Shown here: positions 4,924-15,910 of the stretch, one piece after another
Numbering within the stretch: position 1 is the stretch's first letter
Layout of the letters: every line of letters begins with the position of its first letter
Source: Gemmatimonadota bacterium
GTDB taxonomy: Bacteria > Gemmatimonadota > Gemmatimonadetes > Gemmatimonadales > GWC2-71-9
DNA: 40,578 bases
Direction of reading: 5' to 3'
NCBI GenBank assembly: GCA_024641745.1
Contig: JAHECL010000010.1
Location: forward strand, 1-40,578
Translations under genes and position numbers: made by a program
The notes under the pieces: generated by a model
Told to the model about the DNA's origin: nothing
Database searches by the model: none
Seen by the model: the letters and a program-made list of their open reading frames with translations, nothing else

Positions 4924-7844
4924 ACACCTCCTACCGCGGCGGGGCGCTTCCGGCGGATGTGCTGGCCGTCATCGCGGAGGCGACGGCGGGCCTCCTCGAG
5001 CCCGCCTCGCTGTACGAGGTGCTGCGGACGCAGGTGGCCCGTCTCATGGACTGCGACGCGTTCTATGTGGCGCTCTGGGACCCGGCCGCGGAGCATCTCC
5101 GGTTCGTGGCGCACACCGACCGGGGGCAGCGACTCCCGCCGTCCGAGGCGCCGCTCGGGCAGGGCCCGACCAGCTGGGTCGTGCGTCATCGGCGCGTCCT
5201 GGCCCTCGGCGCCCCCGACGTCGAGGAGGTGCCCCGGGGCCGGCCGTTCGGATCCCCCGATGTCAGCCAGTCGGCGGTGCACGCCCCGATGCTGGTCGGG
5301 GACCGGCTCGTCGGCGTGCTCTCCGCCCAATCCTACCGGCGCGATGCCTACGACGAGCATGCGGTGCGCATGCTGGCCGCGATCGCGGTCCACGCCGCCA
5401 TCGCACTCGACGCCGCTCGCACCGCCGACAGCTCGCGCGCGGCGGCTAGGGCGGCGGAGGCGGCGCTGGAAGGGAGCGAGGCGCTGCGCGCCCTGGCGCA
5501 CGACCTCAGCGCGGTTGGAACGCTCGATGCGAGCATCGAACGGGGCCTGCGGGCGGCGCTCGCCGTCACCCGGGCGACCGGCGCGATGATCGCCGGCCGG
5601 CCCGGTGAACAGCTGCCGGGTCTGGTGGTGCTGGGGGCCGTGGGCCGGGAGGCGGGACTCTACCGGGTGGGTGACGTCCTCGGCGAGCGCGACCCGCAGG
5701 TGTCGGTGGCCCGCGTGGGCGAGGCGATGTCCTCTGCCGACCTCGAGTCGGCGCCGGGAGCGGCCCCGGACCCGCGGCGGCCGCGCCCCCACCGTCCAGG
5801 TGCGATGGTGCCGATGCGATCCGGGTCCGTGCTGACCGGCGTCCTGACCGTCACCGGCCCCGACGACCAGTGGCCCCGGCCGGAGGCCCAGGTGCTGTCG
5901 ATGCTCCAGGCGGTGGCCGACCAGGTCGCGGCCGCCATCAACGGGCTCCGGCTCCGCGGTGAGCTCCTGACGCGGCTCGACCAGATCGACGCCCTGGGCA
6001 GGGTGGCCCACGCCCTGACGGGGGTCGATGATGCGGACCGGACCACCCACTTCCTGGCCGAGGAGGGGATGCGCGTGTTCGGCGCCGAGCGCGGCGCGGT
6101 CTTCCTGCTCGACCGCCATGTACAATCCGCCCCCTGCCTGGCCCGGGTCGAGTTGTCGGCGGAGTACGCGAAGGTCTTCGAACGCCAGTTCTTCGCCCTG
6201 CCGGCGGCGCAGCCTATCCTCGAGGGGCGCCCGGTCTTCGTGGAGCACGCCCGTCGCGATCTCGGCACGCCGATGGCCGCCGCGGTCCAGGCCGAGGGCT
6301 ACGCCTCCGCCGCCTTCCTCCCGCTCATCTTTGCCAATGAAACGATCGGGGTGCTGGCCTTCTTTCACGATCGGCCGCGGGAATATGCCGGCGAGGAACG
6401 GCGCCTGGCGGTGGCGTTCTCGGACCAGGCCGCGCTGGCGATCGGCAAGACCCGGCTGTTCGACCTGGTCAACCGCAGCCGGCGGGAGTGGCAGACCGCG
6501 TTCGACGCCGCCGCCACCGGACTCACGATCCTGGACGCCCAGGGACGGATCGTCCGGGCCAACCGGTTCATCGCGGACCTGGCGGACGTCCCCATCACCG
6601 AGATCGTCGGCCGGACCTTTCGCGAACTGTTCGCCAACGCGGGGGAGGGCAGCGGCGATCCGCTCGCCGTCTCGACCGAAACGCGCTCCGCGGTCACCGA
6701 CCTCATCGAGGCCAGGGACGGCCGGTCGCTGGTCCTGACGGCAACCCCCCTCGCGGAGGGGGGGCATGTCGTCGCGGTGGACGACGTCAGCCAGGTGGTC
6801 CGCCTTGAGCAGCGGTTCCGGGCATTGTTCGAGCGGGTTCCGGTCGCCATCTTCACGCTGGATGGCGCCGGCGGGCTCCGGTCCGTGAATCCCGCGGCCC
6901 GCGCGCTGGCCGGATTCGAGGATGCGGCCTCCCGGCTGGCGGACTTCCTCCTGCCGGCCGAACGCGAATATGTCGAGGGACGGCTGTCGAAGGTGCGGGA
7001 GGGGACGCCGCAGGAATTCCTGATGCACCTCCGGCGCCCCGACGGAACGGTCCGCGAAGCCGAGGTGGTGGCGGTGCCGGCCGCCGGCGAGGGGGTGAGC
7101 GCCTCGCTCGTCCTGGCCATCGCGCGGGACGTGACCGACGAGCAGCGCCTCCGCGAGCAGCTCGGGCATTCCGAGAAGCTGGCGGCGCTGGGCAGGCTGG
7201 TGAGCGGCGTGGCGCACGAGCTCAACAACCCGCTGGCGGGCATCAGTGCGCTGGCGCAGGCGCTCATCCTGGACGAGCCGCTCGACGACGGCAGCCGTCG
7301 GGTGGTGGAGGCGATCCGCAGCGAGGCCACGCGCGCCGCGCAGATCGTGACCGACCTGCTGAGCTTCGCCCGGCAGCGCCCCCTGCGGCGGACGGAATTC
7401 GACTTCGCCGCGCTCGTCCGGGCGATCCTCGAGTCGGGTGGCGACCGGCTGGGACGGTGGGTGGTGGACCTGCCACCCGATCTCCCGGCGGTGCACGCCG
7501 ATGCCGACCAGATCCGGCAGGTGATGCTGAACCTGCTCGGCAACGGGGCGCATGCCATGCGGGAGCCGGGCGCGACCGGTTCGATCCGGGCGTGGGTGGA
7601 CGACGAGACGCTCGTGGTCGAGGTCGCGGATACCGGCGCCGGCATTCCGCCCGAGGTCATGGCACGCATCTTCGAGCCCTTCTTCACCACCAAGCCGGTC
7701 GGTGAGGGGACGGGCCTTGGACTGGCCATCTCGCACGGGATCATCCGTGCGCACGGTGGCGACATTCGCGCCGAGAACCGCCCGGGGGGCGGGGCGCGCC
7801 TCTGGTTTGACCTGCCGCGGTCCCCCGCCCGCGGCACGAGGTGA
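4920..7844 (+). CDS. Multi-GAF, multi-PAS sensor histidine kinase
   Basis: The protein has 974 residues and no obvious membrane segment, so it is probably a cytosolic sensor. In order it has about three GAF-like domains (roughly 15-165, 185-335 and 345-500), two PAS-like domains (about 515-635 and 640-740), a HisKA dimerisation domain with HSEKLAALGRLVSGVAHELNNPL (phospho-accepting His near 766), and an HATPase_c domain. The last shows an N box (VMLNLLGNGAHAM), G1 (VADTGAGIP), an F box (FEPFFTTKP) and G2 (GTGLGLAIS). It starts with GTG overlapping the lipid-kinase stop by four bases and ends four bases before the response regulator, its evident partner. GAF domains often bind cyclic nucleotides, haem or other small ligands; the ligand here is unknown. 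The 1107-residue opposite-strand ORF is a shadow. Confidence 0.9.
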   Translation: MNTSYRGGALPADVLAVIAEATAGLLEPASLYEVLRTQVARLMDCDAFYVALWDPAAEHLRFVAHTDRGQRLPPSEAPLGQGPTSWVVRHRRVLALGAPDVEEVPRGRPFGSPDVSQSAVHAPMLVGDRLVGVLSAQSYRRDAYDEHAVRMLAAIAVHAAIALDAARTADSSRAAARAAEAALEGSEALRALAHDLSAVGTLDASIERGLRAALAVTRATGAMIAGRPGEQLPGLVVLGAVGREAGLYRVGDVLGERDPQVSVARVGEAMSSADLESAPGAAPDPRRPRPHRPGAMVPMRSGSVLTGVLTVTGPDDQWPRPEAQVLSMLQAVADQVAAAINGLRLRGELLTRLDQIDALGRVAHALTGVDDADRTTHFLAEEGMRVFGAERGAVFLLDRHVQSAPCLARVELSAEYAKVFERQFFALPAAQPILEGRPVFVEHARRDLGTPMAAAVQAEGYASAAFLPLIFANETIGVLAFFHDRPREYAGEERRLAVAFSDQAALAIGKTRLFDLVNRSRREWQTAFDAAATGLTILDAQGRIVRANRFIADLADVPITEIVGRTFRELFANAGEGSGDPLAVSTETRSAVTDLIEARDGRSLVLTATPLAEGGHVVAVDDVSQVVRLEQRFRALFERVPVAIFTLDGAGGLRSVNPAARALAGFEDAASRLADFLLPAEREYVEGRLSKVREGTPQEFLMHLRRPDGTVREAEVVAVPAAGEGVSASLVLAIARDVTDEQRLREQLGHSEKLAALGRLVSGVAHELNNPLAGISALAQALILDEPLDDGSRRVVEAIRSEATRAAQIVTDLLSFARQRPLRRTEFDFAALVRAILESGGDRLGRWVVDLPPDLPAVHADADQIRQVMLNLLGNGAHAMREPGATGSIRAWVDDETLVVEVADTGAGIPPEVMARIFEPFFTTKPVGEGTGLGLAISHGIIRAHGGDIRAENRPGGGARLWFDLPRSPARGTR

Positions 7845-12602: not shown

Positions 12603-14729
12603 ATGATAATGATTCTCAATATTGTAACCAGTTCGATCCTCCTCTTCGCCGCTCCCCAGCAGGCGCCGTCCGCGCCGCCGCAGGGCGGGGACCTCGCGCC
12701 GGTGGTGCAGCGCATCGCCACCACGGTGCAGCTCGCGGCGCAGGAATACCGGATCGGTGTCGCCGACGGGCGGGTGGTTTCCCCCGCCGAGGTCGAGGAG
12801 GCCGGACTCTTCCTGGCGGAGGCGCGCCGGACGGCGGAACGCCTGCCGCCTGAAGCTGCCGCATCCACCATCGCGGCCATCGACCGCCTGATTGCCGACG
12901 TCAGCCGGACCGCCGAGCCCGACTCGATCGCGGTGGCGGCGCGTGCCCTCACGGCGGGCCTCGCCGAGCGATACCGGGTGGACGTCGACCAGGTGCCGGC
13001 ATCGGCGCCGGCGCTCGCGCGCGGCGCCCAGGTGTACCAGCAGAACTGCGCCGACTGTCACGGAATCGCGGGCCGGGGGGATGGCCCCGGCGGGCTGGGG
13101 CTGACCCCGCCTCCAGCGGCGCTCAACGACGGCGTCCGGCTGGTGGCGGTCTCCCCGCTCGATTTCTATCGTCGGGTCACCATCGGCGTGGCGGGGACGG
13201 CGATGCCGGCCTACGAGACGCGGCTGAGCGCCGCCGACCGGTGGGCCGCTGCCGCCTACGCCACCCTGCTCCGGTATCCCGCCCCCGCCGGCGAGGTCCC
13301 GGCCGGCCTTCGCGCCTTCGGCACCACGGCGCGGATGACCGATGCCCAGATCGCCGAGGCGCTCGGCACGTCGGTCGAGCGGTCGACCCCGTTGATCGCC
13401 GCCGTCCGGAGCTTCCATGGTCAGGAGTCGGGGGCGGAAGCGGCGGCCGTCTTTGCCGATGTGAACCGGCGGCTCGACACCGTGCTCACGCTCGCGGCGG
13501 CGGGCCAGGCCGAGGCGGCCAGCGGGGCGGCGTTCGAGGCGTACCTGACCTTCGAACAGGTGGAGTCGGGGGTTCGCGCGATCGATCCGGGACTCGCCTC
13601 CCAGCTGGAGGCGGTGTTCGCCACGCTGCGCGGCCGGGCCGGGGGTGGGGCCACGCCGGCGGAACTGAAGACGCTTCGCGCCGAGCTGGCGACCGGTCTC
13701 GCCCGGGCCGAGCTGCTGATCGGAAAGCCGATGACGGGGACCGACCTCTTCGTCCAGTCGTTCGTCATCCTCCTGCGCGAAGGCCTCGAGGCGATCCTGC
13801 TCATCGGCGCCCTGATCGCCTTCCTGGTCAAGACCGGGAACGCGCGCCGTCGACGGGACATCCACGTCGGCGTCGCCGCGGCCGTGGTGGTGAGCCTGCT
13901 GACCGCCGTCGCCTTCGAGACGATCTTCCGCTTCTCGGCGGCGAGCCAGGAGGTGCTCGAGGGCGTCACCATGCTGGTGGCGACGGGCGCTCTCTTCTAC
14001 GTGAGCTACTGGCTGCTGTCGAAGATGGAAGTGGCGAAGTGGAACCGGTTCGTGAAGGGCAAGGTGCAGGACGCCCTGGTGTCGGGCTCGGCGTTCGCCC
14101 TGCCCTCGGTGGCGTTCCTGGCGGTGTACCGCGAGGGCGTGGAGACGGTGCTGTTCTACAAGGCGCTGCTGGTGGCCGGGCCCGCCGGCGGGGCCGTCGT
14201 GCCAGTGGTGCTGGGCATCGCCGCCGCATCGGTGGTGCTCGCCGTGGTCTATGTGCTGATCAATCGCTTCGGGGTCCGCCTGCCGCTCAAGCCGTTCTTC
14301 GGGATCACCAGCGCCTTCCTCTACTACATGGCGTTCGTCTTCCTCGGGAAGGGCATCGCCGAACTCCAGGGTGGCGGCGTGGTACCGATTACGGTGGTGA
14401 GCTGGGCACCACAGATCGAACGGCTGGGGATCTACCGCACGGTGGAGTCGCTCGGGGCCCAGGCGGTGCTGGTGCTGCTGCTCCTCGCCGCCGTCGTCTG
14501 GACCTTCTATCTGGAGCCGCGACGGTTGCGGGTGACGCAGGAACTCGTGCCGGAGCCCGTCGCACCGGGCCGGGAGCCCGGCGTCGCCGAGTCCATCCCA
14601 ATGGCGCCCGCGAGCGGAGTGCCCTTCGAGGTGGACCTGCTCCGTTCGCTTGAGCGGATGGATGCCGACCTGGCCGAGCTGCGTGCGGAGGTGGAGCGGC
14701 TGAAGGCGCGACTGCACGCCCGGCGCTAG
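12603..14729 (+). CDS. Cytochrome c/FTR1-family iron permease
   Basis: The protein has 708 residues. A hydrophobic leader (about 1-17, ending FAA) precedes a helical segment and a cytochrome c domain with the haem motif CADCH at 149-153 and a likely Met ligand in TAMPAY. A helical periplasmic linker (about 235-375) leads to an FTR1 permease domain with roughly seven membrane helices. The two iron-path REXXE motifs are LLREGLEAILLIG and VYREGVETVLFYK. A short coiled coil (RMDADLAELRAEVERLKARL) ends the protein. FTR1 permeases import ferric iron coupled to oxidation of ferrous iron, and the fused haem domain could supply the electron step. Fur control is indicated by the box over the start codon. 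Because that box overlaps the start, the first residues are uncertain: the leader lacks the usual N-terminal Lys or Arg. Confidence 0.9.
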   Translation: MIMILNIVTSSILLFAAPQQAPSAPPQGGDLAPVVQRIATTVQLAAQEYRIGVADGRVVSPAEVEEAGLFLAEARRTAERLPPEAAASTIAAIDRLIADVSRTAEPDSIAVAARALTAGLAERYRVDVDQVPASAPALARGAQVYQQNCADCHGIAGRGDGPGGLGLTPPPAALNDGVRLVAVSPLDFYRRVTIGVAGTAMPAYETRLSAADRWAAAAYATLLRYPAPAGEVPAGLRAFGTTARMTDAQIAEALGTSVERSTPLIAAVRSFHGQESGAEAAAVFADVNRRLDTVLTLAAAGQAEAASGAAFEAYLTFEQVESGVRAIDPGLASQLEAVFATLRGRAGGGATPAELKTLRAELATGLARAELLIGKPMTGTDLFVQSFVILLREGLEAILLIGALIAFLVKTGNARRRRDIHVGVAAAVVVSLLTAVAFETIFRFSAASQEVLEGVTMLVATGALFYVSYWLLSKMEVAKWNRFVKGKVQDALVSGSAFALPSVAFLAVYREGVETVLFYKALLVAGPAGGAVVPVVLGIAAASVVLAVVYVLINRFGVRLPLKPFFGITSAFLYYMAFVFLGKGIAELQGGGVVPITVVSWAPQIERLGIYRTVESLGAQAVLVLLLLAAVVWTFYLEPRRLRVTQELVPEPVAPGREPGVAESIPMAPASGVPFEVDLLRSLERMDADLAELRAEVERLKARLHARR
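12604..12618 (+). promoter_or_regulatory. Fur box over the start of the iron permease gene
   Basis: The 15 bases TGATAATGATTCTCA match the 7-1-7 Fur operator (TGATAATnATTATCA) at 14 of the 15 positions, counting the free central base. Extending one base to the left, the site matches 15 of the 19 positions of the classical GATAATGATAATCATTATC. It is an AT-rich patch in very GC-rich DNA and overlaps the ATG codons at 12603 and 12609. A repressor bound here would block transcription or elongation of the iron permease gene, as expected for iron uptake. TATGAT at 12602-12607 could also serve as a -10 box. Confidence 0.72.
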
Positions 14730-14751
14730 CAGGAGCGGCAGGGGGAGAACG

Positions 14752-14785
14752 GCGAACGGCCCACCGAATTCGGTGGGCCGTTCGC
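14752..14785. terminator. 34-base perfect palindrome, likely two-way terminator
   Basis: This is a perfect 34-base palindrome (arms of 17, starting GCGAACGGCCC) lying 22 bases after the permease stop codon. Folded as RNA it gives a stem of about 15 pairs with a four-base AAUU loop. No strong U tract follows on either strand, so termination would rely on the stem, or on Rho. On the plus strand it would end the iron permease mRNA. On the minus strand it would be the 3' hairpin of the candidate RNA. Confidence 0.6.
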
Positions 14786-14920
14786 ATTGAGAGGTGGTAG
14801 ATCGCCCCCTGAGTTATACGGAGACAGGCCTAAGTGCCTGCTCCAACCCTTCTTCGACCTACCACTTTCTTCTGGAACCAGATTCGGTCCCTTCCTGCTC
14901 AACTACTTAAGCACCATCCG
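14752..14920 (-). ncRNA. Candidate structured small RNA (about 169 nt, minus strand)
   Basis: This fills most of the only gap over 300 bases, which is clearly less GC-rich than its surroundings. Read on the minus strand it folds compactly as a three-way junction. The closing stem pairs GUUGAG(C)AG at 14903-14895 with CUCUCAAU at 14793-14786. Side hairpin P2 is GGGACC-GAAUCU-GGUUCC (14891-14874). The long arm P3 has an 11-pair base stem (14865-14855 with 14804-14794), an internal loop, a five-pair helix (GGGUU/AACUC) and a nine-pair tip with loop ACUUAG and one bulged U. The closing stem abuts both P3 and the palindrome with no spare base. All four non-Watson-Crick pairs are G.U on the minus strand and would be C.A mismatches on the plus strand. 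I do not recognise it as SRP RNA, tmRNA, RNase P RNA or a typical 6S RNA. Confidence 0.55.
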
Positions 14921-14926
14921 TGCCAC

Positions 14927-14954
14927 ATTGTACATCATCGTAAATCACTGTCAA
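14927..14954 (-). promoter_or_regulatory. Sigma-70-type promoter for the candidate RNA
   Basis: On the minus strand there is a perfect -35 TTGACA (14954-14949), a 16-base spacer and a -10 TACAAT (14932-14927; five of six to TATAAT). Transcription should begin near 14920 and read into the structured RNA. The promoter lies just downstream of the lgt terminator, so it appears to be an independent unit. It is the closest match to the sigma-70 consensus that I found in the window. Confidence 0.6.
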
Positions 14955-14985
14955 TTAACCGTTTATGGCGTTTGTAGGGATGGTG

Positions 14986-15029
14986 AAAATCGGCCAGGTT
15001 CGTCAAATTGTTTGACAAATCTGGCCGAT
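14986..15029 (-). terminator. Intrinsic terminator of the 19-gene minus-strand operon
   Basis: Two 19-base arms (14989-15007 and 15011-15029) pair with only two non-Watson-Crick positions around a three-base loop. Reading on the minus strand, the stem is followed by a short T run (GATTTTC). It lies 44 bases after the lgt stop, the right place to end the long operon. The lgt 3' end and the promoter region also share an 11-base inverted repeat (ACTGTCAATTA at 14947, TATTTGACAGT at 15075) with one mismatch, which may be chance. Confidence 0.7.
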
Positions 15030-15073
15030 ACCATTTAACCGATTGTCCCAAAACGACTTGGATTGCTGTCGTG

Positions 15074-15910
15074 CTATTTGACAGTTGGCGTCGGTGTCAG
15101 GGAAAGATACTCCCCAGCGGGTGCTTCACCCGCGCCGCGCAGTCGCGTGAAGACTGCGATGCCCACCAGCAGGAGGACGACGCTCGTCAGCTGGGCCGCC
15201 GTGAATCCGGCGAAGAACCGGTCGTCCTTGGCCCGCACGACCTCGACCAGGAACCGCTCCACCCCTGCCATCATCAGGTAGATGCCGAAGAGGGCACCGG
15301 TCCCCCAGTCCATCTTCCGCAGCTTCCAGAGCATGGTGAACGCGAGAAACATCAGCGTCACCTCGTAGAGCTGCGTCGGGTGGACGGCGAGGAGCGTGGA
15401 CGGATCGGTGCCGGGCGGGAGGGCCACGCCGAAGGCGGCGAGGTTGCCGGCGGTCGTGGGGGGCAGGCCCTCGGGAAATGCGACCGCCCAGGGCAGGGTC
15501 GTGGGGCGGCCGTAGTCGTCGCCGACGAGGAAGCAGCCGACCCGGCCGAGGGCGTACGCCGCGGCGAGGGCGGGCGCCATGATCTGCATCGTCCAGCGGA
15601 CCGGCACCTTCAGCCGCCATCCGTTGATGAGCACGGCGGTGACCCCGCCCAGGAAACCGCCGTACCAGACCAGCCCGCCGCGCGAGAAGAGCGTCCCGCC
15701 GTGGAGCGCCATGTACCAGAGTCGCGCGCCGAGAATGCCGCCGATGAGCGCGGCGATGATGATGTCGGAGGAGTACTCCTTGTTCAGGCTGCGCCGTTCC
15801 AGTTCGAGGGCGATGAGCCACCCGCCCATCAGGAACGCCGCCATCATCATGATGCCGTAGCCGGTGACCTCGAGTGGACCGAGCTGGATATTGAAGGGGT
15901 AGACTGGCAT
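15074..15910 (-). CDS. lgt: Prolipoprotein diacylglyceryl transferase
   Basis: Lgt transfers diacylglycerol from phosphatidylglycerol to the lipobox cysteine of prolipoproteins in the inner membrane. The protein has 278 residues and about seven hydrophobic segments. It has the family motifs RGGLVWYGGFLGG, the signature GRVGCFLVGDDYGRPT with Arg 123, and HPTQLYE near the C-terminus. The E. coli signature reads GRxGNF, with Asn where this protein has Cys 126. From memory, the GCF form also occurs in other phyla, so this may be a variant subfamily rather than a defect. It is the last gene of the long minus-strand operon; 12 bases separate it from tsaD. Confidence 0.88.
   Translation of the reverse strand: MPVYPFNIQLGPLEVTGYGIMMMAAFLMGGWLIALELERRSLNKEYSSDIIIAALIGGILGARLWYMALHGGTLFSRGGLVWYGGFLGGVTAVLINGWRLKVPVRWTMQIMAPALAAAYALGRVGCFLVGDDYGRPTTLPWAVAFPEGLPPTTAGNLAAFGVALPPGTDPSTLLAVHPTQLYEVTLMFLAFTMLWKLRKMDWGTGALFGIYLMMAGVERFLVEVVRAKDDRFFAGFTAAQLTSVVLLLVGIAVFTRLRGAGEAPAGEYLSLTPTPTVK

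Follow-up and report, generated by a model that had tools for sequence, protein, structure and literature searches.

What does the gap between the genes lgt and FTR1 encode in the window, i.e. the whole 40,578-nucleotide stretch of Gemmatimonadota DNA analysed here? The genes flanking this gap are the following.

15074-15910, minus strand: lgt, the same-strand neighbour
12603-14729, plus strand: gene for an FTR1 iron permease with a cytochrome c domain, the convergent neighbour in most genera

An earlier note had proposed that two convergent operons are separated here by a new structured RNA, which is made from the minus strand and has a promoter of its own. As described below, this proposal is backed by covariation, by synteny and by the absence of a match in Rfam. 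The gap holding the RNA is indeed AT-richer than its surroundings (51% G+C, against 71% for the window overall). That the region could not be matched to a known RNA family was borne out by the Rfam scan, which was empty: the Rfam 15 covariance models gave nothing at the gathering threshold and only chance matches at E<=10.

Several signals had been described on the minus strand, and they were found where they had been placed. The sigma-70-like boxes TTGACA (14954-14949) and TACAAT (14932-14927) are separated by 16 nt and give 11 of 12 matches; shuffled sequences are expected to hold 0.2 such sites. The 34-nt palindrome lies at 14752-14785. Region 14750-14925 of the minus strand folds at -90.5 kcal/mol, compared with a mean of -58.5 for dinucleotide shuffles, none of which (0/200) was as low (z = -7.3). 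This value is owed partly to the terminator palindrome, and the conserved hairpin alone has a z of about -4. For the hairpin alone the two strands are about equally significant (z -4.2 for the plus strand and -4.1 for the minus strand). The strand assignment is based not on energy but on the promoters, the position of the terminator and the conserved G-U pairs, which can form on the minus strand alone; the non-Watson-Crick pairs of the stems are all G-U on this strand, as had been claimed.

Comparison with related genomes gives the following anatomy for the RNA.

14745-14899, minus strand: predicted transcript of ~150 nt, with a start predicted 26 nt downstream of where the -24 box begins and a predicted end after the terminator hairpin
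14874-14891, minus strand: P0, a short variable 5' hairpin, predicted in every copy
14794-14865, minus strand: conserved hairpin, consisting of P1 (11 bp), an invariant internal loop, P2 and P3
14850-14854, minus strand: AAGAA on the 5' side of the internal loop, invariant in 25 copies
14805-14810, minus strand: 3' side of the internal loop, AGGGGG, within the invariant ACUCAGGGGGCG, invariant in 25 copies
14752-14785, minus strand: terminator-type hairpin of 15 bp with a loop of 4, present in 23/23 copies, mean z -6.2

The conserved layout is thus, from 5' to 3', the small variable hairpin P0, an A-rich linker, a hairpin of 73 nt, a short linker and the terminator hairpin. The covariance-model match in the window runs from 14868 to 14790 on the minus strand, and the blastn matches among 100 relatives cover only minus 14868 to ~14755, which corresponds to the long hairpin plus the terminator. 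Over 23 leaders P0 has a mean z of -1.55, and it reaches p<=0.05 individually in 7 of them. The T tract of the window's terminator is poor and fails a simple T-run test, several relatives having better ones; the terminator hairpin is probably shared with the convergent FTR1 gene. A three-way junction had also been described. Its closing stem is part of the minimum-energy fold of the window but is specific to that fold: relatives keep only the long hairpin (14865-14794), P0 and the terminator hairpin. The stem then called P2 is P0 in the present nomenclature.

The earlier note had advised searching related genomes for compensatory changes in the stems, and these are present. In 25 copies, 99.5% of the pair cells contain a standard pair, and 10 of the 24 hairpin pairs show two-sided compensatory changes (73 cells). 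This level of covariation was reached by none of 500 shuffles, and slid pairings were only 33-47% paired. Because the shuffle control of pair counts leaves relatedness in place, it is the slid control and the clade-wide swaps that carry weight; in genus g35, P1 changes from GUGGUAGGUCG/CGAUCUACCAC to GUCCCAGGACG/CGUUCUGGGAC. The internal loop behaves in the opposite way to the stems, its letters AAGAA and AGGGGG being 100% identical in all 25 copies, whereas the lgt proteins of the family are only ~55-67% identical to that of the window. The copies are 76-80 nt long and differ by non-multiples of three, and every frame has stops in some copies, observations that weigh against protein coding on either strand. 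A reading frame conserved on the plus strand would have counted against the RNA; none is conserved on that strand or on the minus strand, and the view that the gap contains no convincing gene stands. Judged from these sequence comparisons, the hairpin is under selection as an RNA with an invariant purine internal loop, and we consider it almost certain that it belongs to a real conserved RNA gene.

Two promoter-like elements precede the RNA in the window.

14910-14925, minus strand: sigma-54 (RpoN) -24/-12 element TGGCAC-GGATG-GTGCT, assigned by comparison
14927-14954, minus strand: sigma-70-like site TTGACA-16-TACAAT, a possible accessory promoter confined to this copy and absent in sister species G001

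A sequence of the form YGGCAY-N5-BTGC is present in 16 of the 16 copies outside g35 for which upstream sequence is available, the window included. These copies come from eight genera, and the element starts 49-60 nt before P1; it has the TGGCAY form, one copy having CGGCAC. In 460 kb, counting both strands of these loci, the same pattern turns up 22 times, most of these copies being among the occurrences, so that the chance rate is at most ~0.0005 per copy. In the window alone there are two such sites, which is no excess; the case for sigma-54 rests on the comparison. The -12 box of the window is GTGCT and not TTGCT. In the sigma-54 copies the predicted leader before the hairpin is 31 +/- 2.6 nt. 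The rpoN gene was found in G000 and in 91 of the 102 genomes of the family. None of the g35 copies has the sigma-54 site, and all of them have a TTGACA-17-TANNNT-type site (TTGACG in one copy) that predicts nearly the same leader of ~31 nt; the exception is a single g35 copy, with 43 nt. These data make it very probable that the copies outside g35 are under sigma-54 control.

The sigma-70-like boxes of the window had been taken as the promoter of the RNA, with a start near 14920. This assignment is not supported for the family, as the boxes are absent in G001 and the copies outside g35 share the sigma-54 site. The start is predicted near 14899 instead, because 14925-14910, which had been assigned to the 5' part of the RNA and of the three-way junction, fits a sigma-54 -24/-12 element better; the start implied by the sigma-70-like site would fall inside this element, ~20 nt earlier than that of the family. 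The sigma-70-like site may be an accessory promoter, by analogy with that of E. coli glmY (PMC6075780), or it may be due to chance. Further upstream, at 14984-15030 of the window and in locus L002, the lgt terminator of genus g1 encloses an inner palindrome of the form TTGTCAAA-N4-TTTGACGA. It lies about 80-100 nt before the -24 box. TYGAC is similarly placed in several genera; this recurrence is weak and limited to a subset of copies, where it lies ~80 nt upstream of the -24 box. The inner palindrome is a possible candidate for an activator site.

How widespread is the RNA? With the covariance model it was detected in 27 of 102 genomes and in 9 of the 41 genera of the Gemmatimonadales family to which the window belongs. 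One copy per genome is the rule; in G124 the same score was obtained on two contig ends, and other second matches were weak. As the model search detected no copy in the remaining 32 genera, the RNA is dispensable. Samples of the phylum and the class gave no match outside the family in the model search, whose strict filters could miss distant copies. A search for the exact core pattern in 84,980 genomes retrieved Gemmatimonadales/Gemmatimonadetes MAGs and two chance matches, in Kapaibacterium and Kocuria, in which the P1 stem is missing; the single core-pattern match in viral contigs was also a chance one. A laxer model search of 33 non-carriers produced weak matches only, and those inspected were unrelated palindromes. 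For instance, genome G125 (genus g13) holds many repeat palindromes of the GGTCGAAGGTCGAA type (e.g. in L042, L139 and L141) that give weak model matches; it has no RNA at its lgt locus, and the palindromes are probably an unrelated repeat family. A divergent copy of 40 bits is located at 6742-6816 (minus strand) of L092 (G027, genus g26). It retains P1, CAGGGGGCG and the sigma-54 site, but other sequence takes the place of GAAGAAGGGU on the 5' side and of the apical part. Two recent surveys of structured noncoding RNAs in bacteria make no mention of Gemmatimonadota in their main text, and the papers searched describe no small RNA of this phylum. We regard the RNA as a new family, confined to part of one Gemmatimonadales family and, in kind, a sigma-54-controlled small RNA (sRNA).

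What might such an RNA do? We assign a probability of roughly 0.5 to the reading that it is a sigma-54-controlled, trans-acting regulatory sRNA that is independent of Hfq and works by protein binding at the internal loop. A trans-acting regulatory RNA is the most likely kind because the gene has its own promoter, a terminator hairpin, a convergent downstream gene and a fixed locus. Sigma-54 promoters need an activator that responds to a signal, and the sigma-54 promoter implies one here. An enhancer-binding protein would sense the signal and switch on transcription by the sigma-54 polymerase, yielding the ~150-nt RNA. This RNA would act in trans without Hfq. Its working surface would be the internal loop (AAGAA/AGGGGG), with a protein as the most likely binding partner, and the RNA would serve as a decoy or co-regulator in the manner of GlmY/RapZ or CrcZ/Hfq, not as a long antisense RNA. 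At about even odds, protein binding is favoured over long antisense pairing because the loop is invariant within a strong stem, Hfq was undetected and no 11-nt complement recurs. Hfq was found in 0 of 16 genomes of the family by a search that does find it in control genomes, and in 9 carrier genomes no perfect 11-nt complement of the 3' side of the loop recurs beyond the gene itself.

CrcZ and Qrr are sigma-54-dependent sRNAs activated by an enhancer-binding protein. The present RNA shares their promoter logic, but Hfq is undetected here and there is no Rfam match. CrcZ acts on the protein Hfq (PMC4063720). The likeness to GlmY/GlmZ of Enterobacteriaceae lies in a structured intergenic sRNA with both sigma-54 and sigma-70 control; the differences are the absence of a match to the Rfam GlmY/GlmZ models, the other phylum and the absence of qseEGF neighbours. 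Dual sigma-54 and sigma-70 control of E. coli glmY is described in PMC6075780 (Reichenbach 2009, cited there and in PMC8745638), and GlmY works by binding RapZ as a decoy (PMC7073468). With both GlmY/GlmZ and CrcZ, promoter logic and the proposed protein-directed action are shared, and no homology was found.

A more far-reaching version is tentative, with the odds against it. It holds that this Hfq-independent family had its control rewired as a unit, sigma-54 in eight genera versus sigma-70 in one, with the start kept ~31 nt off the hairpin, and that the partner of the invariant loop is a protein for which no control by an RNA decoy has been described yet. If true, the sigma-factor difference with a kept start would be a clean natural example of rewired control of an RNA gene. 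The family also provides a small regulatory RNA that lends itself to testing: its promoter type is predicted, its locus is fixed and its invariant loop can be mutated. Gemmatimonadota are common in soil as a phylum, and neither Hfq nor 6S RNA was detectable in the 16 genomes examined.

The main rival to protein binding, which we consider doubtful, is an Hfq-free trans-acting sRNA that pairs with mRNAs through short seeds in the G-rich internal loop or in an A-rich or CU-rich linker. The anatomy (~150 nt, with a promoter of its own and a terminator hairpin) is typical of an intergenic sRNA, a CUCU/CUCC linker frequently precedes the terminator, and a seed may need no more than 6-8 nt, a length below the reach of the 11-nt complement search. 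However, the invariant letters lie within the internal loop of a strong stem and not on an open strand, the linkers are variable, and neither Hfq nor a recurring 11-nt complement was detected (see above). An invariant loop flanked by covarying stems also resembles an aptamer. The loop could bind a small molecule, the RNA being either a free sensor or, given the terminator hairpin closely downstream, a riboswitch-like attenuator; this is unlikely, as most copies have no downstream gene on the same strand, the next gene being convergent, and the terminator showed no alternative pairing.

The RNA always lies ~60-215 nt 3' of lgt on the same strand, and in g35 it begins ~65 nt past the lgt stop codon. 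It might in principle be an element of the lgt 3'-UTR or its terminator region, whose sole role is to stabilise or terminate the lgt mRNA. This is quite improbable: in g1 and several other genera terminator-type hairpins separate lgt from the promoter, every copy has a promoter element at a near-fixed distance, and non-carriers manage without the RNA. A divergent 6S RNA (RF00013), or another housekeeping RNA missed by Rfam, is very improbable. The RNA is a stand-alone gene with a bubble inside a hairpin, as in 6S RNA, and 6S RNA was found in 0 of 16 genomes of the family by a search that finds it in control genomes. In contrast to 6S RNA, however, it is much shorter, its bubble is of 5x6 purines, short and unlike the large 6S bubble, its distribution is patchy, with most genera of the family lacking a detected copy, and there is no RF00013 match, Rfam being blank even at E<=10 apart from chance matches. 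Finally, a non-functional inverted repeat or mobile palindrome, of which the unrelated palindromes behind weak model matches in G125 and elsewhere are examples, has next to no chance of explaining a sequence with, as a rule, one copy per genome, an orthologous position, compensatory changes and invariant loops.

Wherever the flanks of a copy are usable, lgt is followed directly on its 3' side by the RNA gene, and FTR1 usually faces the latter. At four g13 loci (L079, L081, L091 and L095) an RraA-like gene, with a Pfam match in L079, is located between the RNA gene and FTR1. In several genera lacking the RNA, lgt almost abuts the FTR1 gene, with nothing in between. In the lgt tree all carriers fall in one half of the family (SH-aLRT 99), and at least 6 changes are required to explain their distribution. 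One gain followed by several losses is plausible, though not proven. In L099 (G053, genus g33) the lgt stop codon is directly followed by a sequence, GGCCCACCACCTCCCAGACGAACGCCCGCC..., that resembles the P1 3' arm plus the terminator; the promoter and the rest of the hairpin are missing, and the sequence has probably been left behind by a deletion in the RNA gene.
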